Of a stretch of DNA of 64,000 nt, positions 10,762 through 39,819 are shown piece after piece. The position numbers and the translations under genes are program-made. Position 1 is the first letter of the stretch. Each line of letters starts with the position of its first letter. The DNA is from Pseudovibrio exalbescens DSM 16456 (GTDB lineage Bacteria > Pseudomonadota > Alphaproteobacteria > Rhizobiales > Stappiaceae). A model generated the notes under the pieces. It saw only the letters and a list, made by a program, of their open reading frames with translations, was not told where the DNA came from and did no database searches. The DNA lies in assembly GCF_000422785.1 (NCBI RefSeq), contig NZ_AUGS01000011.1:62001-126000 (forward strand), read 5' to 3'.

Positions 10762-10798
10762 GGCATCGGCGCTCAGGCGCCGGTGCCGATTTTATTTT
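10762..10798 (+). terminator. Rho-independent terminator after nagE
   Basis: An 11-base stem, GGCATCGGCGC with GCGCCGGTGCC (one T-G wobble), with a TCAG loop, followed by GATTTTATTTT. It lies between the convergent nagE and the minus-strand ABC operon, so it can protect both. Confidence 0.8.
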
Positions 10799-10826
10799 GG
10801 GGGATTTGAAATGGAAACAGGCACTA

Positions 10827-11942: not shown

Positions 11943-11957
11943 GCGTGTGTTTTATCC

Positions 11958-13749: not shown

Positions 13750-13820
13750 TTGGGTTCCTCTCTTGCCTGAAGTCCTGCACCCCAGATAGCCCGTCGCCTG
13801 CCTGCGTGCGGCGATCCGTA

Positions 13821-15068
13821 TCAGCGTGCGAGCGCTACAGTCTCTGCTAGCAAGTTGACGGCCTCTTGAGAAGACATGTCCGTGTTAAAATGCTGGGTAA
13901 TCACATCCAGAAAGGCACCGCGTACGGCTCCATCCTGCACAATTTCGTGGGCCAGCGAACTCACCAGTGAGCCGTCCGCTTCGCTTGCTTCCAGATCCTC
14001 CATTGACCGCAAGGCGCATGGATCGAACCCTGATTGGTCAACACCTTTTCGCGCCGGGATAGACCCTTTTTTCAGGTTGAACTTCCGTTGCAATTCTTCA
14101 TCCAGAACCAGCGATGCCATCAAGTCCTGACCTTGTCCCGCCTCATCTTCCGGTACCTTGAACATGGCGAAACTGTCCGAGTTGAGGATATAGCCGTTCT
14201 GGGCTGGTGTTGGTACACAGATGAAGTCTTCTTCGGGCGTCAAACCGGCTGATAAAAACTCTGCCTTGACCCAATCTCCCATGATTTGCATAGCGGCTTC
14301 GCCGCGCATTACCATGGCGGTTGCAAGGTTCCACTCGCGGCCGGGAAAGCCCGGATCCACGAAGGTGGAAAGCTTGCGCATCTGGTCAAAGACCTTGATC
14401 ATGGTCTCAGATGTCAAAGCCTCGGCATCCAGATCCTGCAAGGCCTTCTTGTAGAATTGTGGTCCGCCAATACCCAGAACCACCACCTCAAACAAGGTGG
14501 CGTCTTGCCATGGCTGGCCCCCATGGGCCAAAGGAATGACGCCCTCGGCTTTCAGTTTCTCGGCTGTGGCATTGAACTCCTCCCAGGTTGTGGGGGGCTT
14601 GGCGTCTACCCGTGCCAGAACTTCCGGATTGGCCCAAAGCCAGTTGACCCGATGAATGTTCAGCGGCACGGCCACATAGTCACCGTTATACTTGACCACG
14701 TCCTTCAGCACATCCGGCACAAGCGCATCCCAGTTTTGCCGTTCCGCCAGATCGGTCAGAGGGCGAAGCGCACCAGCTGCAGCCCATTGGTGAATGTTCT
14801 GTCCCTTGATCTGAACGGTAGAGGGTGGATCGCCGGACAACACGCGGGCGCGTAACACTGCGGCCTGGGCATCGCCTCCGCCACCGGCAACCGGTGCATC
14901 TACCCACTTCCCGCCTGCGTCTTCAAACGCATTCTTGAGAACCTGAACGGCTTCCGCCTCGCCGCCGGACGTCCAGTAGTGCAGCACTTCCGCCGTCGGC
15001 TGCGCTGCGGCATGTGTTGTCAATGCCAGCAGAACGGCCGAAGCGTGTCTGAAGAGCGACTGGACCAT
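13821..15068 (-). CDS. gtsA: Periplasmic sugar-binding protein (GtsA-like)
   Basis: A 415-residue solute-binding protein with signal peptide VQSLFRHASAVLLALTTHAAAQ. It then shows the sugar-binding lobe start AEVLHYWTSGGEAEAVQVLKNAF, the conserved SGDPPSTVQIKG and the WLWANPEVL strand. The start is set at 15068 because GGAGGAA lies 5 bases before that ATG; an in-frame ATG 21 bases further upstream has no such site. It resembles glucose/mannose-binding proteins of Gts systems. It is the first gene of the minus operon and is divergent from the two-component pair at 15270. Confidence 0.85.
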   Translation of the reverse strand: MVQSLFRHASAVLLALTTHAAAQPTAEVLHYWTSGGEAEAVQVLKNAFEDAGGKWVDAPVAGGGGDAQAAVLRARVLSGDPPSTVQIKGQNIHQWAAAGALRPLTDLAERQNWDALVPDVLKDVVKYNGDYVAVPLNIHRVNWLWANPEVLARVDAKPPTTWEEFNATAEKLKAEGVIPLAHGGQPWQDATLFEVVVLGIGGPQFYKKALQDLDAEALTSETMIKVFDQMRKLSTFVDPGFPGREWNLATAMVMRGEAAMQIMGDWVKAEFLSAGLTPEEDFICVPTPAQNGYILNSDSFAMFKVPEDEAGQGQDLMASLVLDEELQRKFNLKKGSIPARKGVDQSGFDPCALRSMEDLEASEADGSLVSSLAHEIVQDGAVRGAFLDVITQHFNTDMSSQEAVNLLAETVALAR

Positions 15069-15269
15069 GGAGTTCCTCCCACCTTTCACCTACAGGATTC
15101 GGCGCGTTTTGATAATCTAGTAACAATCACGTACAGGTCAGGTGTTTCGTGAGAATCCGGTGCAGGGTAACGTTCTCGGCAGTCTGCAGTCTCGCGCTCA
15201 CTGGAAAATTTGGTATATACATCAAGAGTTGGGCTCTCTGCCACGCATGAATGACAGGCACACCCGAGT
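15069..15269. promoter_or_regulatory. Divergent promoter region between the Gts operon and its two-component system
   Basis: About 200 bases that must hold promoters for both directions. An imperfect inverted repeat, GAGAA (15150) to TTCTC (15174), is the only symmetry noticed. The arrangement suggests the response regulator binds here. Confidence 0.5.
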
Positions 15270-15992
15270 ATGATGACTTCCAATAAGACTTTGCTCATTG
15301 TTGATGATGATGAAGAGATTGCAAGCCTGACTGCCAGCTTTTTGCGGGATCGTGGCTACACGGTGTTGACTGCCAACTCCGCAGAAGACGCTGAACAGGT
15401 TTTGAAGGCCAACACGGTCGACCTTATGGTGCTGGACATCATGCTGCCGGGAGAAAGTGGTCTGAGCTTGTGCCAAAAAGTGCGCCAGACCTCCAAGCTT
15501 CCGATCATCATCATCTCCGCAATTACCGGAGATACGGAACGCATTGTCGGCCTCGAATTGGGCGCGGACGATTATCTGGAGAAGCCCTTCAATCCCAGAG
15601 AGCTGCAGGCACGCATCTTTGCCATTTTCCGGCGCACAGAAGAGCCTGGTGCGACTGGCGCGCGGCTCAAGGCCCGCCGTTACGAGTTCGGCGGCTGGCT
15701 TTTGGATGAAGCCACCCGTCATCTGAAGGCGCCGGATGGGGTGTTGGTTCATCTCAGTTCTTCGGAGTTCGACGCGCTGCTTACGCTGGTAAAGTCACCA
15801 CAAAAACCGGTGTCTCGCGACACGTTGGGGCGGGTGCTGCGGGGCACGGGCGTGAACTCGCATGATCGTAGTATCGACATCCTCATCAGCCGCCTGCGCA
15901 AGAAACTCGCTCAGACCGACCCGGCAAAGGATTTCATCAGTACGGTTCGCCATCAGGGCTATGTGTTTTCTTATCCGGTACAACAGGTCTGA
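15270..15992 (+). CDS. OmpR-family response regulator, probably GltR-like
   Basis: A 240-residue regulator: receiver domain (residues 7-120) with acidic Asp12-Asp14, phospho-acceptor Asp56 in DLMVLDIMLPGESG, switch Ser/Thr in IIISAITGD and Lys in LEKPF. A winged-helix DNA-binding domain follows (residues 140-235: HLSSSEFDALLTLVKSPQKPVSRDTLGRVL and RSIDILISRLRKKL). It is followed after 26 bases by its histidine kinase. The divergent partner operon is a glucose-type ABC transporter, the same layout by which Pseudomonas GltR/GtrS controls glucose uptake, so that role is inferred. Confidence 0.92.
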   Translation: MMTSNKTLLIVDDDEEIASLTASFLRDRGYTVLTANSAEDAEQVLKANTVDLMVLDIMLPGESGLSLCQKVRQTSKLPIIIISAITGDTERIVGLELGADDYLEKPFNPRELQARIFAIFRRTEEPGATGARLKARRYEFGGWLLDEATRHLKAPDGVLVHLSSSEFDALLTLVKSPQKPVSRDTLGRVLRGTGVNSHDRSIDILISRLRKKLAQTDPAKDFISTVRHQGYVFSYPVQQV

Positions 15993-16018
15993 AACACGAA
16001 GGCTAGAAAGAACGCGGA

Positions 16019-17452
16019 TTGTTAGGACAGCTCTACACGTTTCTGCCCAAGACCTTGGAACAGCGCGTTACAGCGTTGCTGTTGGCCACTGCTGTCCTCG
16101 TCGGTCTGGTTGTCGGAATGGCGGTCAACACCTTCAATCAGCGTGAACAGGCACTGGCCATGGCCTATGAGGTCGGGCATGAGCTCGCGTTGTATTTTGA
16201 AGCATCACCTTCACAAGGCCCCTTTCCGGCTCCTTACGCAGGCCAGTTCATTCAAGTCGTGCCAACCCCTGAAGCTTTGAAGCCCCAAGAATATTTCGAT
16301 TTGCCGCTGCTCCTGCAATTTGGCGAGAAGGCGGTGAGAGCAACGCTTTTGTTTGATGGTCGTCCAAGTCGCGCTGATTTGATAGAGGCAGGCTATGATC
16401 TCAGCGAACAGTCGGCGACCCGCCTAGGTGCTTTGGCAAAGGCCCTTGCACGGCAAGACCTGACGGCTCGCCTTCTAATTCCCGATGAAACAGCGTCAGG
16501 ACTCGGCGGCGTGGTGGTCTCAGCGCCGCGAGTTTGGTCGGAACGCCTGACGGAACCCATGGTGGTCATTTTTGCGGCCTGCGCCCTTCTGGTGATTGTC
16601 GTTGGGGGCCGAATGCTTGCTCATTTTTGTGCCCAGCCATTTCGCTCTCTGGCTGAACACGACCGTGCGAACCTTCAGCCATGGGACACGGAAGAAGCGG
16701 TGGTCTTGCAGGACAAGATTCTGGAGCAACAGGATGCGCGCGCCACCATGCTTTCAGAACAAACGCGAATGCTGGCCTCTATCAGTCATGACCTGCGAAC
16801 ACCGGCAACTCGTTTACGCCTGCGACTGGAGCAAATCGAGTCGGCTGCCATCCGTAACCGCATGCTGCAGGATGTGGAGGAGATGACCCAGCTCATCACG
16901 GCGTCGTTGGATTTTCTGCGTTTCGATGTTCGGATGGAAGAACCACAACAGCTTTCCCTAGGGGCGCTCCTGCAATCGCTTTGTGATGATTACGTCGATA
17001 CGGGTCATAACGTCACCTTTATCGCCGAGCGCCATGCCCGCGCAGATCAGGCACACAGCATTTTTGGTGGTGGCGGGGAAGTTGAATTGGCTGTTGAAGG
17101 ACGAGCGGTCATGAATGGGCGGCCGACGGCCTTGCGGCGGGCCTTCACCAATCTCATTGACAATGCGCTGAAATACGGCGGCGCGGCCACTGTGCAATTG
17201 CAAAGCCATTTGCACGACCGTCTCAAGATCAGAGTAAGTGATCCCGGACCAGGCATTCCGGCACATCTTCACGAGCGTGTCTTCGAACCCTTCTTTCGCA
17301 ATGACAGCAATGAGCGCACCCGCTCCTCCAGCGTGGGATTGGGCTTGTCCATCGTGCAGCAGATTGTCAAGGCGCACGGCGGGGTGATCACGCTTGGAGA
17401 GACGGCAGACGGTCAGTTCTGTATCATCGTAGAATTGCCACGCGAACTATAA
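16019..17452 (+). CDS. Membrane sensor histidine kinase (GtrS-like)
   Basis: A 477-residue sensor kinase. The first membrane helix is at residues 15-36 (VTALLLATAVLVGLVVGMAV), a periplasmic sensor domain covers about 37-180, and the second helix is at PMVVIFAACALLVIVVGG. A HAMP-like linker leads to the dimerisation domain with phospho-His257 (ASISHDLRTPATRLR). The ATPase domain has N-box NLIDNALKYGG, G1 DPGPGIP and G2 SVGLGLSIVQQI. The start is a TTG at 16019 with only a weak AGAAAG upstream, so it could be a little shorter. It pairs with the response regulator at 15270. Confidence 0.9.
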   Translation: MLGQLYTFLPKTLEQRVTALLLATAVLVGLVVGMAVNTFNQREQALAMAYEVGHELALYFEASPSQGPFPAPYAGQFIQVVPTPEALKPQEYFDLPLLLQFGEKAVRATLLFDGRPSRADLIEAGYDLSEQSATRLGALAKALARQDLTARLLIPDETASGLGGVVVSAPRVWSERLTEPMVVIFAACALLVIVVGGRMLAHFCAQPFRSLAEHDRANLQPWDTEEAVVLQDKILEQQDARATMLSEQTRMLASISHDLRTPATRLRLRLEQIESAAIRNRMLQDVEEMTQLITASLDFLRFDVRMEEPQQLSLGALLQSLCDDYVDTGHNVTFIAERHARADQAHSIFGGGGEVELAVEGRAVMNGRPTALRRAFTNLIDNALKYGGAATVQLQSHLHDRLKIRVSDPGPGIPAHLHERVFEPFFRNDSNERTRSSSVGLGLSIVQQIVKAHGGVITLGETADGQFCIIVELPREL

Positions 17453-17469
17453 ACCCTTGAGAGCACAGC

Positions 17470-18006
17470 ATGTACTTCTTCACTGCAGACACTCACTTTG
17501 GCCATGAGCGAATTATTGGTTTGTGTGATCGACCGTTCAAGGATAGCGCGGATCAAACCGCCGGTCTTATCGAACGCTGGAATGCAGTTGTCGGACCCAA
17601 CGATCACGTTTTTGTCGTCGGCGACTTTGCTCACGGCGCCACACAGGATGAAATGAAGGCCATTTTTGCAGCGCTTAACGGGACCAAAAGTCTGATTTGC
17701 GGGAACCACGATGGTGCCGCTACGAAGAACCTGCCGTGGCAATCACATGACCAGCGATTTCCGGAGTGGGCTGTCACGGATACCTTGCGGCTACGCCATG
17801 AAAAACAGACCTACTTCATGTGCCATTATGCATGGCGCACGTGGCCGGAAGATCATCACGGCGCTATTCATCTGTTTGGGCATTCGCATGGCCGATTGCC
17901 GGATTTGGGGCGATCCTGTGATGTTGGCGTGGATCTGTGGGACTATGCCCCGGTCAGCACGGAACAGTTGCTTGAAAAATTTCAGGCTGTCATGCCTCAT
18001 GCCTGA
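17470..18006 (+). CDS. Calcineurin-like metallophosphoesterase
   Basis: A 178-residue single-domain protein with all metal-binding blocks of the family: TADTHFGHE at the N-terminus, VVGDFAHG, ICGNHD, MCHYAW and LFGHSHGRL. Small enzymes of this type hydrolyse phosphomonoesters or diesters; the substrate cannot be told. It starts 17 bases after the kinase stop and may be co-transcribed with it. A terminator follows at 18056. Confidence 0.87.
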   Translation: MYFFTADTHFGHERIIGLCDRPFKDSADQTAGLIERWNAVVGPNDHVFVVGDFAHGATQDEMKAIFAALNGTKSLICGNHDGAATKNLPWQSHDQRFPEWAVTDTLRLRHEKQTYFMCHYAWRTWPEDHHGAIHLFGHSHGRLPDLGRSCDVGVDLWDYAPVSTEQLLEKFQAVMPHA

Positions 18007-18436
18007 CCTTGAAGGACTCACAAGCCACTTCAGGTAGTCAGGGCTCGCGATTCCGAAAGCGCGGTATCAATTGCCATTCGGCGCTTTTTTCGCCGCTTAT
18101 TTTTTAAAAAACAAGCGTTGTACATAGCGTGTGTGCTCTTTGATTTTACTGCGTTTTCAAGGTGGCTGTTGCTTTGTTACCAAAGAAACTCACTGTCATG
18201 ATGAAAATATCTCTCGTTCCCCTCTTGCGCAGTTTTCAAGTTCAGGTTAAAGAGCTGACTTCAGCAGCAAAATTTAGTCGGACCGCAAAAAGGTCCAGTT
18301 GTGTGTTTAGTGTAGTTACTGACAGTAGTCAGTGCTGCGCTTTTTCGTGCACATAGATCTTTAATACGTGCGTATTACTTGCGGCGACTATTTATCTACT
18401 GCCCATTGAAAATCTATACTGCTGAGGAACGGATCT
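18007..18436. other. Intergenic region with terminator and promoter for the NCS1 permease
   Basis: 430 bases with no convincing gene. A terminator-like hairpin sits at 18056-18090; the remainder, AT-rich around 18100-18400, is probably the permease leader and promoter. Confidence 0.5.
18056..18090 (+). terminator. Terminator after the metallophosphoesterase
   Basis: AAAGCGC (18056-18062) pairs with GCGCTTT (18081-18087) and runs into TTTTTT. The 18-base loop may hold a small inner pairing. Confidence 0.6.
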
Positions 18437-19939
18437 ATGGCGCAAACCGAAGTTCTGGACGAGACTTCGTATGGCAAGTCACGCCTGCTCGAACAAGCAA
18501 TTCTCCCCGTCTGGCTCAATCAACGCGCCATCTCGAATACAGGGTATATCGGTCTTTGGATTTCCATGGCCGTGATCATCGCCACCTTTCAGTTAGGCGC
18601 TGGCGGTGTTGCGGGCCTGCCTCTGACCACCGTTCTGTTGACGATCTTCATCGCAAACGTTCTGCTCGGTTTTGTCATGATGCTGACGGCCGATATTGGC
18701 ACTGAACATGGGATTTCCTTTGCGGTTTACCTGCGGGCGCCGTTTGGAACGCTTGGAACGCACATTCCCTCCATCTCGCGCGGCATTGTAGCGGCGATCT
18801 GGTTTGGTATTCAGACCTACCTCGGTGCTCTGGCACTGAACGGGATTTTCGCCCATCTGACGGGGTTTGATAATTGGGTGCCCTGGTACATCGGTTTTGC
18901 GGTGCTGCAGGTTGCCAATACCGCGATGGGCATTCGTGCTGTTGAGCTTCTTGCCAAGGTTGCTGCACCCGCCATTCTCGCCATCTCGGTTTGGATGTAT
19001 TTCACACTGGACAATCTGGCAACGGCCAGTGGCAAGGACATCTGGACCTTCGTTGGCGATGCAGAAATGTCCGTGGTTGCGCTATTGGTGGCCAACATGG
19101 CCTTCTGGTCCTCGCTGGCCGTGGACATTCCCAACATCACGCGCTTCATCAAGGTGGAAAGCGGCACCAAGAATTTCTTCAAGCGCAACAAGAACACCTT
19201 TGCTGCCCAGTTCATCGCTTTGCCGGTGGTGCAAGTATGGATTGCCTTCATTGGCGCGATTTCCTTCATCGCTGCTGGAGATTGGAACCCGATCACGGTA
19301 ATCCAGAGCGAAGGTGCGGGTATTACCCTCATCGTCCTCTTGGTCATGGTTGTGCTGGCGCAATGGTCCACCAACACCAGCGCCAATCTCATCCCGGCTG
19401 CCCTCACCTTCATCAATGCAGGGGCGCCATGGATCAACTATGCGATGGGACTGGTTCTGGCAGCGCTGGTTGGAACCATTGCAATGCCTTGGCTGATTTT
19501 GGAGCACCTCTTCACCTATCTCAGTCTCTACGGTGGCATGTTGGCTGCGCTCGGCGGGATCATGATCTGCGACTACTTCGTGATCCGCAAACGGCGGTTG
19601 AACGTGCCGGATCTTTACGAGGAAGAAGGCCAGTTCCACTATCTGGGCGGATGCAACCCGGCAGGACTGATTGCCTGGGCGATTGGCGGAGTGCTGGCAG
19701 TGGTCTTTATCGAGTACTCATATCTCGTGGGCTTTCCCGTTGGCTTCGGTATCTACTACTTGCTGATGAAGGGGTGGGTTCTGCCGCGCTTCAAGCAGGA
19801 TGAAGTGGAACATCCGGATATGGACAAGTATCTGGCCACCAGCGTGGACCGAAACTGGGTCTATGTTCAGGGCAATGGCATGGTGCAGATGGAAACCTCA
19901 GCAATTCCTGCACATGCGCTGGCTCGCGAAGACCTCTAG
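18437..19939 (+). CDS. NCS1-family nucleobase/allantoin/hydantoin permease
   Basis: A 500-residue inner-membrane transporter with about twelve hydrophobic helices. Motifs fit the nucleobase:cation symporter-1 family: LPVWLNQRAISNTGYIGLWI near the start, TEHGISFAVYLRAPFGTLG, SRGIVAAIWFGIQTYLGALAL, ALLVANMAFWSSLAVDIPN and the C-terminal MICDYFVIRKRRLNVPDLY. Substrates in this family include cytosine, uracil, allantoin, hydantoins and thiamine. No catabolic neighbour marks the substrate. It is monocistronic, closed by the terminator at 19968. Confidence 0.88.
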   Translation: MAQTEVLDETSYGKSRLLEQAILPVWLNQRAISNTGYIGLWISMAVIIATFQLGAGGVAGLPLTTVLLTIFIANVLLGFVMMLTADIGTEHGISFAVYLRAPFGTLGTHIPSISRGIVAAIWFGIQTYLGALALNGIFAHLTGFDNWVPWYIGFAVLQVANTAMGIRAVELLAKVAAPAILAISVWMYFTLDNLATASGKDIWTFVGDAEMSVVALLVANMAFWSSLAVDIPNITRFIKVESGTKNFFKRNKNTFAAQFIALPVVQVWIAFIGAISFIAAGDWNPITVIQSEGAGITLIVLLVMVVLAQWSTNTSANLIPAALTFINAGAPWINYAMGLVLAALVGTIAMPWLILEHLFTYLSLYGGMLAALGGIMICDYFVIRKRRLNVPDLYEEEGQFHYLGGCNPAGLIAWAIGGVLAVVFIEYSYLVGFPVGFGIYYLLMKGWVLPRFKQDEVEHPDMDKYLATSVDRNWVYVQGNGMVQMETSAIPAHALAREDL

Positions 19940-31223: not shown

Positions 31224-32188
31224 GCAATCTGACAAGCCCGGTCCGTTAGACCTCCTCTGGACCGGGTATTCCTTGAAAGCACACAGTCTTTGTGCTCTGC
31301 TTTTCCTCCTCCTCCGCTTGGGAACCGGTTTTTCGTCAATGATGTGGTGGGAGCACCGAGCCTCAGCGGCACCGTCTGTATTGTCTAGTTTTCAGGATTG
31401 TGGCGACAGGCACCCCATCACCATGGCAACCACGAGCCGTTCGACGGTTCTGTTTTCACGATGACGATGAGATCAAACTTTAGCTCGTAAGCTTTGTTTC
31501 CCGGTGCCCGGTTATCAAAGCTTCATTAGCATGCTCGCTCGCCTGCGTTCTGGATCTCCAGAGCGGATGATGAAGTGTCGGGCCTATGATCCGCTTTGGT
31601 ATTCAGATTGCGGTTACCCTGCAAGCAGGGCGCCTACCCCAATGGGTCTGAGCGGCGTGGCTGGCAACGCTATCTCTGCCATTTCGGCCGTGTTGCTGAT
31701 CAAGAATCAGAGGTTTGATTCCCCCGACTGCTAGGGATTTACGCCACCCCTACCATTTTAGCAGGAGGTTTGGTTGCGTTGATTAAGTACTCACAGCCTA
31801 AAATTCATGCCGCGAATGAGTGCCTTGAGAGCGCCGTGCATGGTTCCTAGACAACTGGCGTGTGTGGTTACACGTCTATTCAAGTGCTTAAGTGTCTAAC
31901 GCATGCAGGATTTGCGTAGCACGAGGGGCGTTCATATCCTTAGTTCTACGATAATTCAGGGGTGCTCGTAGCAGATGAAAACGCATATTACGCATTTTCA
32001 ATAGGTTAGCATCTCTTCTTGCTACAACCATTTGTACATGCTGCTGTCTTTCGGTCGTTCACGCACCAACTTTGCCATCGAAAATTCATAAAATGCTTGC
32101 ACATGCATATTGACAGATGCGGATGAATATACTTGTATGCGCAAGCAATCAGCGAGGTTGCCCACTCAGACAGAGGTTAAAACGCGTT
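31224..32188. other. 965-base gap upstream of the biosynthetic cassette
   Basis: No gene that I can support; short open frames at 31273-31464 and 31504-31734 lack good ribosome sites and family features. CCCGGTCC (31237-31244) and GGACCGGG (31259-31266) form a terminator-like stem for the preceding operon, though with no clear T-run. A perfect CCCTGC-AA-GCAGGG hairpin lies near 31620. The last 150 bases are AT-rich and probably hold the cassette promoter. Confidence 0.5.
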
Positions 32189-33679
32189 ATGGTCTATGAG
32201 ACTTTAAGCCAAGGCTTCTTGGAGCAGTTTGAGAAAACCAAAGACAAGATTGCACTTTTTACCGATCATGGCGATGTGCGTTACCTTGACCTTTTGGAGA
32301 TCTATCGTGGTTTCTGCCACCAGGTAGAAGATCTGCCGCTGCCTTCTGGTTCCCGCGTAGCATTGTATGCAGAAAAGAACGCGCAAACGATCGCCCTGAT
32401 CCTGGCGCTCTGGCACCACGGTCATCCTGTGATGGTTGTTCCTACCGCCCTCGGTGATAAGGCATGTGACAAGGTATTTGAAGATGCAGCTATATTTGCG
32501 CAGTTGGGCCTTAACACCAACGGAACCATAGAAATCCTGAAGGAAGTGCGTGGTAAAGGCTTCACGAAATGTACCAGTAGTTGCGCTTTGATCTTAACCA
32601 CATCCGGAAGCACCGGGGTTCCGAAAGGTGTGATGCTTCCTGTAAGGGCGTTGACCAATTTCTTCAACTGGGCACGACAGCAGTTTTCAGTAACAGCTGA
32701 CACAACGGTCTTCAGCTATGCGCCCTTGAACTTCGATTTGGCTCTTCTCGAAATCTGGACGCCTCTTTCCGTCGGGGCGCGCTCGGTCCTTGCGGACCCT
32801 GTAAAAGGTGCGGACGGTGCTTATCTGCGCTCGTTGGTATCCACGTATCAGCCAGACCTCATTGAAGGTGTTCCCCTGCTTTATCGACTGCTTGCAGAGG
32901 CTGATGGCAGCTCAGCCTTCAAGGCCCCCTTTGTGAAAAATGTTATCATGACCGGCGAGAAGTTCTCGAAAGAGCAGCGCCATCAGCTGGCCCATATGTT
33001 CCCTGAAGCGATCTTTCGGAATGTTTATGGGGCCACGGAGACCAACAACAGTCTGGTCTTCTCCTGCAATGCCGAAGAGTTGACAGACCTTGAGGTCATG
33101 CCGGTTGGTATGCCGCTACCTAATGTAAAGGTTCTGGTCGAGCCGACAGATGAACCGGAGGCAGACGATGTCGCCCGCGGCGAATTGCTCGTTTCTACGC
33201 CGTTTCAGGCAACAGGTTATACAGATCCAGTAAAAACAGAGGATGCGTTCATAACTCGGACTGTGGAAGGCGTAGCATCAACATTCTATAAGACCGGAGA
33301 TCTTGTGAACATGAAACAAAATGGCCTGATTTATCTTGAAGGCCGAAGCGATTTTATTGTGAAAGTTCGTGGTGTCCGCACCAACATTGTCGATGTTGAG
33401 ATCGCCCTTGCCTCCCATCCAGATGTGGAAGCGGCTGCCGTAATACCCCTTCCTGACACGGCTGCAGGCACGAAGCTGGCTGCAGTTGTGCAGGTTTCGC
33501 CTGGCGCAAAGCTGAATAGCCTGAGCCTGCGCAGCTTTTGCGCCGATCACATCCCCCGCTCCGCAATTCCCTCTTTCTACAAAATTTCAAGTGATCCAAT
33601 CGCAAGAACCTCTACAGGCAAGCCCGACCGGAAGTCTCTTGCTGGGTTCTTCCTAGAAACCGGAGAAGCAACTTCATGA
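32189..33679 (+). CDS. Stand-alone adenylation enzyme (amino-acid/acyl AMP ligase)
   Basis: A 496-residue ANL-superfamily enzyme. Core motifs in order: A3 LTTSGSTGVPKGVML, A4 YAPLNFDLALLEIW with an Asp where amino-acid-activating domains place it, A5 VYGATETN, A7 YKTGDL, A8 GRSDFIVKVRGVR and A10 STGKPDRKSL with the catalytic Lys. The start is set at the ATG at 32189 behind AGAGG; an in-frame ATG 72 bases upstream adds a basic tail with no homology-like features. The next gene is a carrier protein overlapping by ATGA, so this enzyme probably loads an amino acid on it, as PltF loads PltL in pyoluteorin synthesis. The substrate cannot be read from the pocket by eye. Confidence 0.85.
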   Translation: MVYETLSQGFLEQFEKTKDKIALFTDHGDVRYLDLLEIYRGFCHQVEDLPLPSGSRVALYAEKNAQTIALILALWHHGHPVMVVPTALGDKACDKVFEDAAIFAQLGLNTNGTIEILKEVRGKGFTKCTSSCALILTTSGSTGVPKGVMLPVRALTNFFNWARQQFSVTADTTVFSYAPLNFDLALLEIWTPLSVGARSVLADPVKGADGAYLRSLVSTYQPDLIEGVPLLYRLLAEADGSSAFKAPFVKNVIMTGEKFSKEQRHQLAHMFPEAIFRNVYGATETNNSLVFSCNAEELTDLEVMPVGMPLPNVKVLVEPTDEPEADDVARGELLVSTPFQATGYTDPVKTEDAFITRTVEGVASTFYKTGDLVNMKQNGLIYLEGRSDFIVKVRGVRTNIVDVEIALASHPDVEAAAVIPLPDTAAGTKLAAVVQVSPGAKLNSLSLRSFCADHIPRSAIPSFYKISSDPIARTSTGKPDRKSLAGFFLETGEATS

Positions 33680-33933
33680 CCTATTCGCAAGCAATTCGCA
33701 GTTTCATTTGTGACGAACTGACCACCGATGTTTCTGCAGATGAAATCCCAGAGGACTATGACCTGTTGGCCTCTGGTGTTTTGGACAGTCTGGCGCTGGT
33801 GCGTCTGATTGCGTGGCTCGGAGAAACTTTTTCTCTGCCAATCAACGAGATGGACCTTGCACCGGAAGACTTTCTGAGTGTGAAGGCCATAGACGACTTC
33901 ATTCTGAAGCATGAACAGAAAGCAGTCGCCTAG
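33676..33933 (+). CDS. Acyl/peptidyl carrier protein
   Basis: An 85-residue carrier protein with the phosphopantetheine site Ser38 in GVLDSLALVRL. A four-helix fold is suggested by FICDELTTDVSADEIPEDYDLL and INEMDLAPEDFLSVKAIDDFI. Its ATG overlaps the stop of the adenylation gene, so the two are translationally coupled and presumably work as a pair. Confidence 0.9.
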   Translation: MTYSQAIRSFICDELTTDVSADEIPEDYDLLASGVLDSLALVRLIAWLGETFSLPINEMDLAPEDFLSVKAIDDFILKHEQKAVA

Positions 33934-33967
33934 TACTAACCAGATTTTCTATTAGGAGGATAGAGTA

Positions 33968-34345
33968 ATGTTCTACCGCAAGAAAGATGAACTTGAAGGC
34001 GTAAATTGGGGAAATGGGTCCAGCCACCGTCTAATCACGAAGAAAGACAACATGGGGTTCACTGTGGCCCATACTGTTGTGAATGCAGGTTCAGAGTCTC
34101 GCTTGCAGTATGAGCGTCATCTGGAAGCCTGCTACTGCATTTCCGGTAGCGGCAAGGTCTACAACAAAGATCGCAGCATCGTTTTTAACATTGAACCAGG
34201 CGACATCTACGCTCTCAATGAACACGACCCGCATATACTCGTCGCCAACGAAGGTGAAGACATGCATCTCGTGAGTGTCTTCAACCCGCCGCTGAATGGC
34301 GATGAACGACATAAACTAGACCCAGAAGGGTTCTCCCGCTACTAA
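33968..34345 (+). CDS. Orphan ectoine-synthase-like (EctC) cupin
   Basis: A 125-residue cupin of the EctC family. The three residues that bind metal in characterised ectoine synthases (Glu57, Tyr85, His93) are matched by Glu53 (RHLEACYCISG), Tyr81 (EPGDIYALNEHD) and His89 (HDPHIL). EctC closes N-acetyl-diaminobutyrate to ectoine, but ectA, ectB and ectD are absent here and the neighbours are carrier-protein enzymes. It therefore probably performs a related ring closure or dehydration on another substrate. Strong ribosome site AGGAGG. Confidence 0.85.
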   Translation: MFYRKKDELEGVNWGNGSSHRLITKKDNMGFTVAHTVVNAGSESRLQYERHLEACYCISGSGKVYNKDRSIVFNIEPGDIYALNEHDPHILVANEGEDMHLVSVFNPPLNGDERHKLDPEGFSRY

Positions 34346-34366
34346 GCTAAAAGGAGTGCGAGCGTC

Positions 34367-35503
34367 ATGCTCACGACCAATCCTTCTGCGCGCTTCGAAG
34401 AGCTGATTTCGGCTCTTCGTAAGCTCGATCCCTCCATCAATGAGGGAACCCCTTCTGAGAGGGTGTTTCCTCGTACCAAATGGCAGGCCATCTCCGAGAC
34501 GGGTTTCTTTCACGCGGCTGTAGACGAAGCCTTCACCTTAAACGATCGCCTCAAAGGCATGCTCAGCCTTTGCGAAACATTGGGTGAAGTCTCCCAGGAT
34601 GCAGGCCTCAACTTCTCTGTGGCAACACATCTAGCCAGCACCATTTCCGCTTTGGAGCAGTTCGGCAGCGATGATCTGAAAGACCGTTACCTGTCTTATT
34701 TGGCAGCGGGGCGTTTGATTGGTGCCCACGCCATCAGTGAGCCTGGTGCCGGGTCTGATGCTGTTTCCATGCAGGCAACGGCTGCCAAGCATGGAGATGA
34801 GTACGTCCTGAATGGCCACAAGGCATTCGTAACAAACGGCCCGATCGCCGATGTGATCGTGGTTTACGCCAAGACCAGTGACAGCAAGGCAGGCGGCATT
34901 TCCGCGTTTCTTGTGCCAACAACCACTAAGGGCGTGAAGATTGGGCCAACCATGAAGAAGGTTGGTTTGATTTCTTCTCCCCTCAGCGAGCTGACACTGG
35001 ATGACTGCCGCATTCCGGCAGCCAATCTCATTGGCCGCGAAGGCGCAGGTTTCCTGATCCTGAGCTATGTCATGAAGCGTGAGATCCTCTATTCCTTCAT
35101 GATGAATGTCGGCGAAATGAAGCGCCGAATTGACCGGTGTGTTCGGTATGCCAACACCCGCGAGCAATTTGGCACGTCCATCGGGGCCTTCCAGTCTGTG
35201 GCCAACAAGATCGTAGAGATGAAAATGCGCTTCGAAATGAGCCGCAACTGGATCCTGCACGTAGCGGAAAAGGTCAGCCAGAACAAAGACGTGACGACCG
35301 ATGTTGCGATTGCAAAGGTCTATGTGAGCGAAAGCGCCCTGTCCACGGCCATTGACGCGGTCCATGTGTTCGGTGGCTACGGCTTTCTGGCGGAAAACGG
35401 ACTTGGCGCTGAGGTGTGCAATGCACTGGCCGGTCCGATTTACTCCGGAACAAACGACATTCAGCGCTCCCGAATTGCAGCCATGATGGGGATCAGAGCA
35501 TGA
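34367..35503 (+). CDS. Acyl-CoA-dehydrogenase-family flavoenzyme, likely acting on a carrier-bound substrate
   Basis: A 378-residue FAD enzyme with ACAD landmarks: GAHAISEPGAGSDAVSM, GHKAFVTNGP, TREQFGTSIGAFQ and AVHVFGGYGF. The usual catalytic Glu of medium-chain enzymes (in YEGT) is Ser360 (IYSGTNDIQR). A Glu is instead found at residue 239 (MKREILYS), 29 to 26 residues before REQFG, the isovaleryl-CoA-dehydrogenase position. Next to an adenylation enzyme and a carrier protein, the best-known parallel is PltE/RedW, which oxidises prolyl-carrier to pyrrolyl-carrier. The actual substrate here is unknown. Confidence 0.85.
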   Translation: MLTTNPSARFEELISALRKLDPSINEGTPSERVFPRTKWQAISETGFFHAAVDEAFTLNDRLKGMLSLCETLGEVSQDAGLNFSVATHLASTISALEQFGSDDLKDRYLSYLAAGRLIGAHAISEPGAGSDAVSMQATAAKHGDEYVLNGHKAFVTNGPIADVIVVYAKTSDSKAGGISAFLVPTTTKGVKIGPTMKKVGLISSPLSELTLDDCRIPAANLIGREGAGFLILSYVMKREILYSFMMNVGEMKRRIDRCVRYANTREQFGTSIGAFQSVANKIVEMKMRFEMSRNWILHVAEKVSQNKDVTTDVAIAKVYVSESALSTAIDAVHVFGGYGFLAENGLGAEVCNALAGPIYSGTNDIQRSRIAAMMGIRA

Positions 35504-36225
35504 GCACGTCGCACATCCACTCCAATCAAGACCCGTCCGTTGCTCTGAACCATTTTGGTTTGGACACTGACTTTAGTTTTCTCGGTGTCGAGTGCCAGCC
35601 CGGCGAGGTTCTGGATTATCTCGACCCTGGGGTTCAGAACTACGTAAAGCATGCACTTGGTCGGAAAGATCATTCCGACCGGTCCGTGGCAGTCACGCTG
35701 TACTACAAGATCCGCGATGGCATCTTCTACGAGGTGTTTGGAACGGACATCAGCAAAGACGGCTTGAAGGCCTCCGGCATCATCAATGCCGGGCGTGGCT
35801 TCTGTCTGCACAAGGCCATTTTGTATGCTGCATGTTGCCGTGCCGCCAGTGTGCCGTGCCGTGTTGTGGCCTCTAAGGTTCAGAACCACATCACCACACC
35901 AAGCCTGGAAAAATTGGTTGGCGGCAAGGTGTTTCTGCATTGGTACAATGAGGTGAAAGTAGACGGTCAATGGCTGAAGACTGCACCTGTTTTCAATAGC
36001 TTGCTTTGCAAGCTCTACAAGATTGAACCGCTCGAATTCGACGGTTTCAGCGATGCGGTCCATCAGCCGCATACCAAGGGTCGGTCCATGGAATACCTTG
36101 GAGAGCCGACACGTTTCTCTAACCCCAAGCACTCGGAACTTGTGTGTCTGGTTCAGTCCCAGCACCCCTTGATGGTGACAGGCAAGGGATCAGTGCCGAA
36201 GGAGCGTGAGTTCCGGGCTGCCTGA
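35500..36225 (+). CDS. Transglutaminase-like cysteine enzyme
   Basis: A 241-residue protein with a transglutaminase/cysteine-protease core: Cys102 in GRGFCLHKAILYAACCRAASVPCRVV and His147 in FLHWYNEVKVDGQWLKTAP. The third residue of the usual triad (Asp in W...DP) is Ala162. The start ATG overlaps the previous stop as ATGA. In the andrimid pathway a transglutaminase-like protein (AdmF) joins a carrier-bound acyl group to an amine, which is an attractive model here: release of the carrier-bound product by amide formation. Confidence 0.75.
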   Translation: MSTSHIHSNQDPSVALNHFGLDTDFSFLGVECQPGEVLDYLDPGVQNYVKHALGRKDHSDRSVAVTLYYKIRDGIFYEVFGTDISKDGLKASGIINAGRGFCLHKAILYAACCRAASVPCRVVASKVQNHITTPSLEKLVGGKVFLHWYNEVKVDGQWLKTAPVFNSLLCKLYKIEPLEFDGFSDAVHQPHTKGRSMEYLGEPTRFSNPKHSELVCLVQSQHPLMVTGKGSVPKEREFRAA

Positions 36226-36253
36226 TTACAATTTTTTTTGAGGATATACTTGC

Positions 36254-36886
36254 ATGTACAACAAAAACACTGGTGGCCCATCAAACAGCATTGTCGTCTA
36301 CACCGACTATGTGTGCCCGTATTGCCTCTTGGCTGAGACGGTCATTCGACGTGTCATCGACGGTCACGATGTGCCTATCGAGTGGCGGCCTTATGAACTG
36401 CGTCCTGATCCTGTGCCCACGCTCCGGGTCGAGGATCCATATCTGCCTTCAGTCTGGGAACGTTCCGTTTATCCCATGGCAGAAAAGCTGGGAGTAGCAA
36501 TCAAGCTGCCTGAGATTTCGCCGCAACCTCGCACTCAGAAAGCCTTTGAAGGCTTCCAACTTGCTCAGGAAAAGGGACTTGGTGAAGCATATTCCAATCG
36601 CTTTTTGCGCGCATTCTTTCAGGAAGAGCAGGACATTGGAGACATTGAGGTGATTGTTCGCCTTGGCGAGGAAGTTGGCCTTGATGGAGCGGAACTGCGA
36701 GAAGTGCTCGATAAAGGCACCTATTCATTCTCTCACTGCAAGGCGCTGGAACAGGCCAAAGAAGAAGCCAACATCTCTGCTGTTCCAACCATTTTCATTG
36801 GAGACAGGCGTCTTCAAGGCGTTCCTTCGGAGGGCGAGTTGCGCGCTGCCCTTCAAGAAGCCGGGTTGTTGAATACAGCAACCTAA
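36254..36886 (+). CDS. DsbA/FrnE-family thioredoxin-fold protein
   Basis: A 210-residue cytoplasmic protein of the DsbA-like group that includes FrnE. The CPYC motif is at residues 21-24 (TDYVCPYCLLAE), the cis-Pro is in ISAVPTIFIGDRRLQGVP and a helical insert lies between. There is no signal peptide. FrnE-type proteins occur in polyketide clusters and are annotated as possible isomerases or oxidoreductases. Here it may keep thiols of the carrier-protein enzymes reduced or take part in product chemistry. A T8 run precedes its GAGG ribosome site. Confidence 0.85.
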   Translation: MYNKNTGGPSNSIVVYTDYVCPYCLLAETVIRRVIDGHDVPIEWRPYELRPDPVPTLRVEDPYLPSVWERSVYPMAEKLGVAIKLPEISPQPRTQKAFEGFQLAQEKGLGEAYSNRFLRAFFQEEQDIGDIEVIVRLGEEVGLDGAELREVLDKGTYSFSHCKALEQAKEEANISAVPTIFIGDRRLQGVPSEGELRAALQEAGLLNTAT

Positions 36887-36932
36887 ATTTCAACCACTCC
36901 CCTCATTCAACTGAAACATAGAAAGGTATGTC

Positions 36933-37253
36933 ATGAGCTGGTTCTATCTTGGTATCGCTGTAATATTTGAAATTGCAGTTGCAATTTCGGCAGGTAATGC
37001 AAAAGGTTTCACTAACTTCAGGTGGACGGTCGCAACTCTAGTTAGTGGTGTAATCGCCACATTTTTCCTAAGCCTCGCGCTTCTAACCTTTGATGTCGGT
37101 GTCGGTTACGCGATCTGGACCTCGGTATCAGGTGTTGGAATTGTTGTTTTGGGCGCACTCTTCTTCAATCAGCGCCTTAATTGGCAGAAAGCTCTAGGCA
37201 TCGCGATGGTCGTGGGCGGGGTCGTCGGTCTGCGTCTGACTGGGGCAGCATAA
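36933..37253 (+). CDS. Small multidrug resistance (SMR) protein, first of pair
   Basis: A 106-residue inner-membrane protein with four hydrophobic helices. Glu13 in the first helix (AVIFEIAVAISAG) is the proton/substrate site of the SMR family, and VGVGYAIWTSVSGVG is the dimer-interface motif in helix three. It is followed after 50 bases by a second SMR gene, so it likely forms a heterodimer exporter for the cassette's product. Confidence 0.88.
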   Translation: MSWFYLGIAVIFEIAVAISAGNAKGFTNFRWTVATLVSGVIATFFLSLALLTFDVGVGYAIWTSVSGVGIVVLGALFFNQRLNWQKALGIAMVVGGVVGLRLTGAA

Positions 37254-37303
37254 ACAGTCTACTCGGCATCCTTCACATGAAGCTAAAACAAGGAACTTGA
37301 AAA

Positions 37304-37681
37304 ATGTCAGCGACAACTGAACAAAATGAAACGACTGAAGGTCACGGAAAAGCATGGATCATGCTCCTTCTCGCAGGCCTGTTTGAAATCGGCTATGCCT
37401 TGAGCGTTGGTGGGAGCCAAGCGTTCACAGTACTCACCTGGTCCATCTCTGCGGTCATCTTCTTCTTGCTCACGTTATATTTCCTGAGTGTGGCGTTGAA
37501 GCAGATCGATGTTGGTATTGGCTACGCCGTTTGGGCAGGTATCGGCGCAATTGGAGCTGCGGTCTTTGGAAGTATCCTTCTGGACCAACCCGTGACCTTG
37601 TATCAGGGCGTATGGCTAGCCGTAATCATTGCGGGTGTTGTTTGGCTGAAACTGGCCGATAGCAAGCAGCTAAACGGCTGA
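37304..37681 (+). CDS. SMR protein, second of pair
   Basis: A 125-residue SMR protein with a 16-residue hydrophilic N-terminal extension, then four helices. Glu28 (LLAGLFEIGYALS) and VGIGYAVWAGIGAIG match the family. Paired SMR genes (EbrAB, YkkCD, MdtIJ types) usually need both partners. Export of the locus product, or self-protection, is inferred from position. Confidence 0.88.
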   Translation: MSATTEQNETTEGHGKAWIMLLLAGLFEIGYALSVGGSQAFTVLTWSISAVIFFLLTLYFLSVALKQIDVGIGYAVWAGIGAIGAAVFGSILLDQPVTLYQGVWLAVIIAGVVWLKLADSKQLNG

Positions 37682-37690
37682 GGTAATCAA

Positions 37691-37802
37691 CATCAAAGGC
37701 AGACCTTTTGATGCTGTAACCCGTCTCAAGATCCCGCTCCTCGCGGTAAGGCATACAACACCGTTAGTTTGAAAACCATGCAGGTGTTTGCCGCGAGGAG
37801 CG
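37691..37802 (+). other. Structured intergenic RNA element upstream of the deaminase
   Basis: Two stems in a row. CATCAAAGG (37691-37699) pairs with CCTTTTGATG (37704-37713) with one bulge, in terminator position after the SMR pair. CGCTCCTCGCGG (37735-37746) is perfectly complementary to CCGCGAGGAGCG (37791-37802), with inner ACACC/GGTGT pairing. The second structure lies 63 bases before the deaminase start. It could be a leader RNA or riboswitch; I do not recognise a known class. Confidence 0.55.
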
Positions 37803-37864
37803 ATATCTCTTGCGACTTAATTTGCCCCTAAATTCTCAAACCAATGACAGGGAGCGCGGCATAC

Positions 37865-38356
37865 ATGCCCTCAAATACAGAACACGACGTAATTAACGGT
37901 CTGGTTCAACAGGCGGTGGACATGTCTATTGAGCATGTTGAGAAGGGCGGCATTCCCTTCACAGCGTTGATTGCCGATCAAAACGGCAAAGTCTATGGAA
38001 GCGGGGTCAACCGCGTTTCAGAAGATCACGATCCCACAGCCCACGCAGAGGTTGTAGCAATCCGAAATGCATGCAAGCACCGTCAGCACCCTAGCCTGAG
38101 CGGTTTGACCCTGATCGCCTCCGGTGAGCCATGCGCGCTGTGTTACATGGCAGCGCTTTATTCCGGCGTCTCACGCATAGTCTACGCGGTGGACAGAGAC
38201 GGAGCCGCGCAAGGTGGCTTTAACTACTCGCGTTCCTACGAAATCTTCGCTGTGCCAACAGAAAATTGGGCCATGCGCCCACAACTTCACGAAGTAGATA
38301 ATGGTTTCGAGCCCTTCCGTATGTGGTTGGCGAAATCAAGTTTCATGCGGTTTTGA
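37865..38356 (+). CDS. Nucleoside/guanine deaminase-like zinc enzyme
   Basis: A 163-residue member of the cytidine/deoxycytidylate deaminase superfamily, guanine-deaminase/TadA-like branch. The zinc and catalytic motifs are DPTAHAEVVAIRNA (HAE) and SGEPCALCYMAALY (PCxxC). The ATG at 37865 behind AGGGAG is used; an upstream in-frame ATG at 37844 precedes the ribosome site. C-terminal FGxxW-type residues fit a small-molecule rather than tRNA substrate, but this is not certain. It is followed by the Asp/Glu-racemase-superfamily gene 14 bases later. Confidence 0.82.
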   Translation: MPSNTEHDVINGLVQQAVDMSIEHVEKGGIPFTALIADQNGKVYGSGVNRVSEDHDPTAHAEVVAIRNACKHRQHPSLSGLTLIASGEPCALCYMAALYSGVSRIVYAVDRDGAAQGGFNYSRSYEIFAVPTENWAMRPQLHEVDNGFEPFRMWLAKSSFMRF

Positions 38357-38370
38357 AGGAGGACGCTCAG

Positions 38371-39156
38371 ATGGAGGGTAAACTTGATGGCAAATGGAAG
38401 GCTGATGGATGGAGTGCTCCCACTCGCATCGGCGTGATTGTACCTCACGCGGATGTGGGGCCTGAAGCCGAGTTCGGCGCAATGGCGGGCGGCGAGGTGT
38501 CCATTCATGGTGGGCGGGTTCATTTTTCGGCCATGCGCGCGGGTGGCGTTATGGACGAGAAGATCGCTCATCAGCCAGTTGAAACGTTTACCGCGCCGCC
38601 GCATCTGGATGAAGCGGTAGAATCTCTGGCCACATCTCCGTTGGATGCGATCGGGCTTGCATTTACAAGTTCAGCTTACAAGCATGGCCCGGATGGTGAG
38701 GCTGCGTTGATAGAGCGACTAAAGCCTGTGCTGCGCGGTATTCCAGCCACCACAACTTGTCTTGCTGCCGCGAAGGCTTTCAAGCAACTTGGGACCAAAC
38801 GATTGGCCTTGATCAATCCGCCCTGGTTTGACGATGCGCTGTCCAAAGAGGGGGCGGGCTACTTTGAAAAGGCCGGAATATCCGTCGCGCATCATGGCCC
38901 GTGTGGTTTGCCGAGCGGGCAACCGCATATTACCCCAGCCGGGCTTTATGATTGGGTTGCCAAGGTGGTCAAGGAAAATGACGTTGATACCGTTTTCGTC
39001 GCCGGCAACGGCCAGCGTGCCGTTGGCATCATTGATGCGGTGGAAAAGGATTTCAATGTAGCGATGACGTCCGCCAACCAAGTGTTGTTCTGGGATACCC
39101 TCTCCAAGTGTCGTGAGAAACCCGTGGTAACGGGATATGGGCGTCTTTTCGGCTGA
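38371..39156 (+). CDS. Asp/Glu racemase-superfamily enzyme (maleate isomerase / arylmalonate decarboxylase-like)
   Basis: A 261-residue protein with RIGVIVPHADVGPEAEF at the N-terminus, a Cys in IPATTTCLAAAKAFKQLG, and SANQVLFWDTL where two-cysteine family members carry the second catalytic Cys. A single Cys is seen in decarboxylases of the arylmalonate type; racemases and maleate isomerases use two. AAGGAGG precedes the ATG at 38371, which fixes the start. It forms an operon with the deaminase, so a two-step conversion of a nitrogenous acid is possible. Confidence 0.78.
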   Translation: MEGKLDGKWKADGWSAPTRIGVIVPHADVGPEAEFGAMAGGEVSIHGGRVHFSAMRAGGVMDEKIAHQPVETFTAPPHLDEAVESLATSPLDAIGLAFTSSAYKHGPDGEAALIERLKPVLRGIPATTTCLAAAKAFKQLGTKRLALINPPWFDDALSKEGAGYFEKAGISVAHHGPCGLPSGQPHITPAGLYDWVAKVVKENDVDTVFVAGNGQRAVGIIDAVEKDFNVAMTSANQVLFWDTLSKCREKPVVTGYGRLFG

Positions 39157-39176
39157 ACGTTTTTAAAGCAACCAGA

Positions 39177-39219
39177 CGCCCGGCAGAAACACCATAGCTG
39201 CTGGGCGCTCATTTATTTG
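39177..39219 (+). terminator. Terminator at the end of the cassette
   Basis: CGCCCGGCAG and CTGCTGGGCG form a 10-base stem (one G-T wobble) with an 11-base loop, followed by a T-rich tract (CTCATTTATTT). Confidence 0.65.
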
Positions 39220-39375
39220 AATTGTTTCTTCATATTTCTATCTGGCCTTGTGCGGTGATGAAATTGATGAGCGTCGTCAATTCTTCACAACGTACTCTAC
39301 CTCTTTTATTATTAATTTGTATGTGCATATATAAAATAGACTAAGACAATCTATGCGCAGGAAGCGAGCAATACC

Positions 39376-39819
39376 ATGTCCCTCCAAAGTGCCGCATGGG
39401 AGCGGTTGATTTACCTTATTGACTTCGTGGAGAACTTCATAGCCAAGGAAATGCAGCGAAAGCACAACATCGGGCTTTCAGAGTTCCGCGCGTTGAAGTT
39501 TCTGGAGGTCGCAAAGGACTCCGAGCTCCGCATGCAGGAACTGGCCGGGCTGTTAGGCTTGAATCAAAGCTCCGTAACCCGTTTGGTCGGGCGTTTGGAG
39601 AATAACGGCTACACTGTCAGGGATCTGTGTCCAGACGACAAACGTGGCATTTATACTGTTCTGACGAACCGCGGACGAAAGCGGCTTTCCGAGGCAAGAA
39701 ATGACTACGACAGCGCGCTGCAGTCTGCTTTGGACCAAGCCAAGGATAAGTTCAACGCGGCGGACGTGCTTGCTTTAACGAATGCGCTTTCCGCCAATGA
39801 CAAGGTTGAGGCCGGATGA
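39376..39819 (+). CDS. MarR-family transcriptional regulator
   Basis: A 147-residue winged-helix regulator: LSEFRALKFLEVAKDSELRMQELAGLLGLNQSSVTRLVGRLENNGYTVRDLCPDDKRGIYTVLT contains the recognition helix and the D-K-R wing typical of MarR. AGGAAG lies about 14 bases before the ATG. An inverted AATTGA/TCAATT pair at 39262-39282 upstream could be its operator. Its placement just after the SMR exporters and enzymes suggests it senses the product or a related phenolic or amine. Confidence 0.87.
   Translation: MSLQSAAWERLIYLIDFVENFIAKEMQRKHNIGLSEFRALKFLEVAKDSELRMQELAGLLGLNQSSVTRLVGRLENNGYTVRDLCPDDKRGIYTVLTNRGRKRLSEARNDYDSALQSALDQAKDKFNAADVLALTNALSANDKVEAG

Follow-up and report, generated by a model that had tools for sequence, protein, structure and literature searches.

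A candidate stand-alone 2-aminopyrrole pathway in Pseudovibrio exalbescens, based on the first part of the showdomycin route

We analyzed a 64,000-nucleotide stretch of Pseudovibrio exalbescens DSM 16456 (NZ_AUGS01000011.1, positions 62,001 to 126,000; hereafter the window), which is part of contig 9 of a 4.16 Mb genome. Between positions 32189 and 39819 it carries eleven genes in the same direction that fairly likely encode a stand-alone 2-aminopyrrole pathway based on the first part of the showdomycin route. The product is most likely an unglycosylated 2-aminopyrrole, or a maleimide-type electrophile arising from its oxidation. A previous sequence-only reading of this DNA knew no named pathway with this set of genes. 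For the core (adenylation enzyme, carrier, EctC-like cupin and flavoenzyme) this no longer holds, as it matches the showdomycin route by gene content (PMC8724604; this review, like PMC6344544 and PMC5924519 below, is cited from excerpts).

Results

The gene set

All eleven genes were confirmed as open frames, and profile searches with Pfam and NCBIfam (NCBIfam only for the second SMR gene) bear out the gene families that had been proposed from the letters alone. The features are as follows, in window coordinates:

32189..33679, + strand: stand-alone adenylation (A) enzyme, predicted SdmC-like role with glutamine or its cyclic amidine as substrate (AMP-binding, 1.5e-45)
33676..33933, + strand: carrier protein, phosphopantetheine site at Ser38 (PP-binding, 3.4e-6)
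33968..34345, + strand: EctC-like cupin, predicted glutamine (amidine-forming) cyclase (Ectoine_synth, 4.6e-35)
34367..35503, + strand: acyl-CoA-dehydrogenase-like flavoenzyme (ACAD), predicted ring aromatisation (Acyl-CoA_dh_1, 4.6e-31)
35500..36225, + strand: transglutaminase-like (TG-like) protein, predicted release enzyme (Transglut_core, 1.7e-12)
36254..36886, + strand: DsbA/FrnE-like thiol oxidoreductase with a CPYC motif (DSBA, 1.5e-26)
36933..37253, + strand: SMR exporter subunit 1 (Multi_Drug_Res, 1.2e-17)
37304..37681, + strand: SMR exporter subunit 2 (best NCBIfam match SugE, below cut-off)
37682..37843, + strand: intergenic hairpin RNA (fold energy against shuffles)
37844..38356, + strand: cytidine-deaminase-fold enzyme, predicted amidine/imine substrate (dCMP_cyt_deam_1, 7.6e-19)
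38371..39156, + strand: EutA/arylmalonate-decarboxylase (AMDase)/maleate-isomerase-fold protein (Amdase, 8e-13; EutA, 3.8e-15, far under cut-off)
39376..39819, + strand: MarR regulator (MarR_2, 1.6e-8)

The first five genes had been described as tightly overlapping. They are indeed closely packed, but not all of them overlap: the four junctions are, in order, a 4-base overlap, a 34-base gap, a 21-base gap and a 4-base overlap. For the A enzyme a longer variant of the open frame starts at 32117. Asp183, Gly281, Thr283, Glu284 and Asn286 of this enzyme are invariant in 56 aligned proteins including that of the window (invariance counts, here and below, omit locus L013).

Relation to showdomycin

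According to the review, the cyclase SdmE converts L-glutamine to 2-amino-1-pyrroline-5-carboxylate, SdmC activates and SdmD carries; cyclisation comes before loading and oxidation, and hydrolysis after oxidation. The C-glycosynthase SdmA (YeiN-like) and the phosphatase SdmB complete the enzymatic part, the rest being non-enzymatic (PMC8724604). The sdm cluster of Streptomyces showdoensis and the window thus share, by gene content only, the A enzyme, the carrier, the glutamine cyclase, the oxidation and the release. The window differs in that it is without the C-glycosynthase and the phosphatase, whereas it adds the DsbA, SMR pair, deaminase, EutA-like and MarR genes.

Among the loci surveyed below, 15 of 80 have the core beside genes for a PsuG-like protein (C-glycosynthase) and a HAD protein (phosphatase); in Burkholderia stagnalis this pair is annotated as pseudouridine-5'-phosphate glycosidase and HAD hydrolase. 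The eleven cassette genes of the window include none of PsuG or HAD type, and the single PF04227 (PsuG) gene of the genome lies on another contig, beside a PfkB-like kinase gene and near recA (judged by eye). In our reading, therefore, the window follows showdomycin biosynthesis through its aminopyrrole half and then continues differently.

Proposed pathway

From the gene set, its co-occurrence and the conserved residues we infer the following reactions. The EctC-like protein would close the side-chain amide of L-glutamine onto the alpha-amine to give a five-membered cyclic amidine, which the A enzyme and the carrier would hold as a thioester, with loading and cyclisation in either order. The prolyl-dehydrogenase-like flavoenzyme would then desaturate the ring to a 2-aminopyrrole-5-carboxyl-carrier, and the TG-like protein would release the acid. 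Because no C-glycosynthase follows, the end product would be the unglycosylated aminopyrrole, or a maleimide-type electrophile formed from it by oxidative decarboxylation and deamination; in the original showdomycin paper the 2-aminopyrrole acid is said to autoxidise to a maleimide. Among the products of the six accessory genes, the deaminase probably hydrolyses the amidine or imine. Processing or disarming of the electrophile probably falls to the EutA-like and DsbA-like proteins, the cationic aminopyrrole would leave through the SMR pair, and MarR would control the cassette genes through an operator of the form TTGYRYRYRCAA.

This agrees in gene content with most of the working model put forward earlier, namely a carrier-loaded amino acid, an EctC-like enzyme that closes the ring, an oxidising flavoenzyme and export. 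In the showdomycin route the amino acid is L-glutamine, and the review has it cyclised before loading and oxidation (PMC8724604). Release as an amide is not supported: nothing in its favour was found, and the review gives hydrolysis at that stage.

Co-occurrence and distribution

Using the EctC-like alignment as bait, we found 482 relatives in the named genome collection; counts refer to the best 80 of these. L036 covers the same region as L041 and is left out of the counts. The complete core occurs within the fetched stretch in 49 of the 80 loci, and the TG-like gene is present in 46 of these 49. Together with seven loci from the plasmid collection this gives 56 core loci, in which both members of the near-identical pairs L012/L067 and L013/L042 are counted. 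The other 31 of the 80 do not hold the core, though two of them (L080 and L114) hold part of it.

All eleven genes (core, TG-like gene and the six accessory genes for the DsbA-like, two SMR, deaminase, EutA-like and MarR proteins) are found in 17 of the 80 loci, in two phyla and in several gene orders. That the accessory genes recur as a suite had not been foreseen. Hosts of the full cassette include Vibrio coralliilyticus, Modicisalibacter, Alteromonas, Chromohalobacter, Grimontia, Leisingera and Boseongicola, as well as Actinokineospora, Actinopolyspora, Nocardiopsis, Kitasatospora, Streptomyces and Arthrobacter. In the plasmid collection the same set is seen in two records, from Streptomyces globosus and Vibrio sp. 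THAF191d.

A second survey took the EutA-like protein of Streptomyces triticisoli as bait against 391 genomes of its Streptomyces-containing order (its own included). Matches were obtained in 26 genomes, whose surroundings were read over at most 20 kb each. In 16 of the 26 the gene sits in a core cassette (67-100% identity), and 15 of these 16 hold all eleven genes; the sixteenth lies on a contig of 16.8 kb. The ten genomes with the gene away from a core are L154-L163 (the copy in L163 is in pieces). The two surveys overlap in S. triticisoli (L164 is L091) and probably in S. globosus.

The grouping of these genes is far beyond chance. A lack of co-occurrence in other genomes had been named as the result that would speak against a single unit; the two surveys, with their different baits, both find the genes together. 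Nonetheless, the distribution of the cassette is patchy: of 398 genomes sampled from the phylum only that of the window has it, and of 295 in the order of V. coralliilyticus only that of the bait. Within the genus, the EutA-like gene turned up in two of 16 genomes, counting that of the window.

Some other candidates were rejected. The TG-like protein is unsuitable as a marker of the cassette because relatives with 29-41% identity are present in 38 of 288 other genomes of the class; a relative on a Polaromonas plasmid sits in an acyl-CoA operon. It has no match in the phage collection, and a phage origin was dropped. The Rhizobial and Agrobacterium EctC-like loci L011 and L014 were not accepted as the same cassette, being without a carrier and such a dehydrogenase nearby (in L014 the A enzyme is matched at 23% only). 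In L011 (Rhizobium etli pB) the EctC-like gene stands beside annotated saccharopine dehydrogenase, D-alanine-D-alanine ligase and diaminopimelate epimerase genes, a different and unexplained cluster; other rhizobial plasmids also hold EctC relatives.

The EctC-like cupin

Residues of the EctC-like protein were compared using the numbering and contacts of the Paenibacillus lautus ectoine synthase PlEctC (PMC6344544). The protein belongs to the same cupin family as ectoine synthase (PDB 5ONM/5ONN/5ONO, 5BXX) and passes its cut-offs in both Pfam (121 against 27 bits) and NCBIfam (142 against 128 bits). The three metal ligands Glu57, Tyr84 and His92 are kept in all 56 core loci and in 33 of 33 non-core loci. 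All 56 core loci also have Trp21, Ser23, Arg25, Thr40 and Tyr52, and 55 of the 56 have Phe106; contacts to the amide and to the alpha-amine are among those retained. Unlike ectoine synthase, in which Asn38 contacts the substrate carboxylate (PMC6344544), the core loci have Ala (32), Cys (20) or Thr (4) at this position, with Ala in the window. Further differences are a three-residue insertion after the Trp (WGNG) and the thioester-pathway neighbours. No ectA or ectB gene is found among the eleven cassette genes. The EctC-like protein probably does not make ectoine, as far as its residues and neighbours can tell.

A precedent for the proposed reaction exists, since a slow side activity of the EctC of Halomonas elongata converts glutamine to the same cyclic amidine (PMC5924519, PMC6344544). 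A substrate bound to the carrier would also be compatible with the loss of Asn38, although the review has cyclisation first (PMC8724604). About 46 kb before the window, on contig 9 (L038), a canonical-looking EctC gene stands beside EctB-like, acyl-ligase-like and PLP-decarboxylase-like genes (judged by eye).

Oxidation and release

The nearest solved structure for the dehydrogenase is an L-prolyl-PCP (peptidyl carrier protein) dehydrogenase. Its closest solved relatives belong to this group (PigA, RedW; PDB 5ZW0, 4IRN), with which it shares the Glu244 position: its Glu239, invariant in 56 proteins, aligns with the catalytic Glu244 of 5zw0, which is changed from Glu to Ala in 6af6. It differs from them in falling under the curated NCBIfam cut-offs (best match PigA, 339 bits against 500; RedW, 309 against 650) and in its predicted substrate, the cyclic amidine.

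In the TG-like protein Cys102 and His147 are invariant in 52 proteins. The third catalytic residue, presumably an Asp near W158-P163 by the consensus, looks replaced (by eye). Seven gammaproteobacterial loci, of which two are near-identical, encode the dehydrogenase fused to the TG-like protein. This suggests a joint action in oxidation and release.

Accessory proteins, control and hairpin

The roles of the accessory suite and its regulation are likewise what we infer from families and conserved residues. Cys21, Pro22 and Cys24 of the DsbA-like protein are invariant in 19 proteins, as are His67, Glu69, Cys97 and Cys100 of the zinc site of the deaminase (HAE, PCxxC), whose nearest solved relatives are guanine deaminases. 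The single cysteine of MarR, Cys85, is also invariant in 19.

The EutA-like protein was modelled at a pLDDT of 86.7, and Foldseek places the model with AMDase and maleate isomerase chains (E 6.5e-14 to 2.5e-9; query TM-score 0.71-0.78). Fold and family profiles are thus those of AMDase, maleate isomerase and EutA. In contrast to AMDase, maleate isomerase and Asp-Glu racemase, however, the places of both catalytic cysteines are taken by Phe98 and Gly212 in all 20 cassette proteins, all 9 aligned proteins from outside the cassette (nine of the ten; the L163 copy, in pieces, was omitted) and all 19 hyp12 relatives, so that a cysteine mechanism is not expected. Hyp12 is a distant EutA-like relative (29% identity in the pair compared) present in 15 of 15 PsuG-type loci.

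The palindromic pattern TTGYRYRYRCAA, allowing at most one mismatch, has 32 sites in the promoters of proteobacterial cassettes (16 regions, 4632 bases in all), where single-base shuffles gave a mean of 0.55 and a maximum of 3; 15 of the 16 regions have a site. In nine whole loci, promoters included, 47 sites were counted in 171 kb; the window holds ten. The test is not independent because the pattern was drawn from k-mers common to the same promoters. Three operator-like sites of the window (no strand assigned) are:

32097..32108: one mismatch, upstream of the A gene start
32133..32144: no mismatch, upstream of the A start and inside the longer variant of the open frame
39317..39328: one mismatch, upstream of marR

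A further perfect match at 36250 overlaps the start of the DsbA-like gene and may reflect chance or internal control.

A structured RNA had been suspected between the second SMR gene and the deaminase gene, and a shuffle test confirms a strong hairpin at 37682-37843 (-54.6 kcal/mol, z -5.3, equalled by 0 of 200 shuffles). Scans with Rfam (gathering thresholds) and for tRNA gave no match, hairpin included, and there is one copy in the genome; it was accordingly rejected as a riboswitch or mobile repeat. Its stem is recognisable in P. exalbescens M63.

Comparison with strain M63 and evolution of the core

The closest named locus among the best 80 is that of P. exalbescens M63, in the same location between inositol-phosphatase-like and nitroreductase genes and with cassette proteins that are 85-100% identical. 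Over the eleven genes dN/dS is 0.00-0.11, though the value for the TG-like gene says little because its dN is 0 at a dS of only 0.025. The dS of the dehydrogenase gene is 0.26 and that of the other nine genes 0.56-1.9; positions 34367-36225 are a probable recent recombination tract between the two Pseudovibrio.

A tree of the core (FastTree, midpoint-rooted; A, EctC and ACAD proteins, 57 rows, 997 columns) puts full cassettes on separate supported branches (0.94-1.0) with PsuG- and TrpD-type loci among them, though support is low (0.45-0.81) at several of the deep nodes. The idea of a monophyletic window type was therefore rejected. Core and accessory suites appear to have been repeatedly exchanged or lost, which fits one common core product.

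Other continuations of the core are also seen. Two loci, in S. triticisoli (L091) and Arthrobacter sp. H35-MC1 (L098), combine one core with both the accessory suite and the PsuG/HAD pair. In plasmids of Streptomyces xanthii and S. clavuligerus and in three of the 80 loci, the A enzyme, carrier, EctC-like protein and dehydrogenase are joined to TrpD/F/C/A homologues, which replace the accessory suite of the window (L034, positions 6727-14065, L015, L052, L059 and L086). By their gene content, these loci look like a route to a tryptophan-like amino acid in which an aminopyrrole replaces anthranilate. On a plasmid of Aliiroseovarius crassostreae (L033, positions 11902-19767) the core is accompanied by two ketosynthase-like genes and a TrpD homologue. 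With the core in at least four cluster types and two phyla, the first half of the showdomycin route looks like a portable module.

Discussion

Several points weigh against the proposed pathway. The available text of the review calls SdmE only a 'cyclase' and does not contain the word 'ectoine', so that the link is one of gene content (PMC8724604); a search pairing showdomycin with 'ectoine synthase' found no paper in the collection that it covered. Amidine formation from glutamine by EctC is reversible with an equilibrium that favours glutamine, and an ectC mutant regained ectoine synthesis with the solitary EctC of Pseudomonas syringae (PMC5924519). The 33 EctC-like loci without the core keep the contacts and also lose Asn38 (Cys in 18, Ala in 15), and the residue pattern thus marks the EctC-like group and not the cassette. 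This pattern outside the cassette and the reversibility of the known reaction have slightly lowered our confidence. Glutamine or its cyclic amidine is a predicted substrate of the A enzyme. Four of the five Trp-type loci (L015, L052, L059 and L086) show no TG-like gene, from which it follows that release can differ. Moreover, the producer would be damaged by a maleimide arising in its cytosol, and the usual cargo of SMR proteins is cationic, whereas maleimide is neutral. Finally, in the ten of 26 genomes with the EutA-like gene outside a core (42-52% identity) it has no cassette gene or conserved neighbour within the stretch read, and is there a possible stand-alone protection gene. Given that full cassettes lie on separate branches of the core tree, it might be argued that the whole accessory suite is a protection or control module outside synthesis.

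Taken further, the latter argument leads to an explanation that has the same core and differs in the accessory half: the core alone would make the compound, and the MarR-SMR-SMR-DsbA-deaminase-EutA genes would serve self-resistance or detoxification by removing the 2-aminopyrrole or maleimide in the cell. Full suites on several separate tree branches (next to PsuG in two loci), the ten EutA-like genes outside any core and the invariant Cys85 of MarR are all in its favour. On the other hand, 15 of the 16 cassettes found with the EutA-like bait keep all six genes with the core, and 11 of the 15 PsuG-type loci show none of the six in the EctC-bait survey, even though hyp12 is present in all 15. 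We regard this explanation as a serious contender, if the less probable one. It is very unlikely that showdomycin or another C-nucleoside is made with a C-glycosynthase supplied from elsewhere in the genome. The core is common to PsuG-type clusters and one PF04227 gene does exist, but its position by a PfkB-like kinase gene near recA is the arrangement expected of ordinary pseudouridine breakdown, the eleven genes are without PsuG and HAD, and within the stretches examined PsuG accompanies the core in 1 of 16 cases in the survey with the EutA-like bait (the bait's own genome) and in 2 of the 17 named full cassettes.

The earlier model, in which the TG-like protein joins the carrier-bound acid to an amine to give an amide, is unlikely but somewhat easier to defend. 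Transglutaminase-fold proteins form amides in some pathways, and Cys102 and His147 are invariant; yet no amine-making gene was recognised among the eleven, and the third catalytic residue looks replaced (by eye, against a consensus). The hydrolysis described for this stage (PMC8724604) argues in the same direction. Least probable of all, and very much so, is a pathway to ectoine or an ectoine analogue serving as compatible solute, as automatic annotation of the relatives has it. Both ectoine synthase cut-offs are passed and the glutamine-derived cyclic amidine is itself a solute (PMC5924519), but ectA and ectB are missing from the eleven genes, Asn38 is lost, the A, carrier and dehydrogenase genes would have no evident use, and a second, canonical-looking EctC gene with an EctB-like neighbour lies elsewhere on the contig (by eye).

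Overall, the stand-alone 2-aminopyrrole pathway remains our preferred reading, and it can tentatively be extended. Quite possibly, though we would not yet count on it, a widespread and unrecognised pathway family under the annotation 'ectoine' makes a free 2-aminopyrrole or maleimide: a near-inert base would leave the cell through the SMR pair and, once exposed to air, become a thiol-reactive electrophile, against which a MarR regulator with a cysteine and dedicated disarming enzymes would protect the producer. C-nucleoside, tryptophan-mimic and ketosynthase clusters would then use the same glutamine-to-aminopyrrole module as a building block. What solitary EctC proteins do was stated to be open in 2018 (PMC5924519). 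If the proposed pathway is true, one group of them gains a concrete reaction, with glutamine to cyclic amidine as main activity. The ectoine synthase annotation carried by EctC-like relatives should be read with this in mind. For marine bacteria, the cassette indicates a small electrophile that is probably new and comes with dedicated genes for regulation, export and protection.

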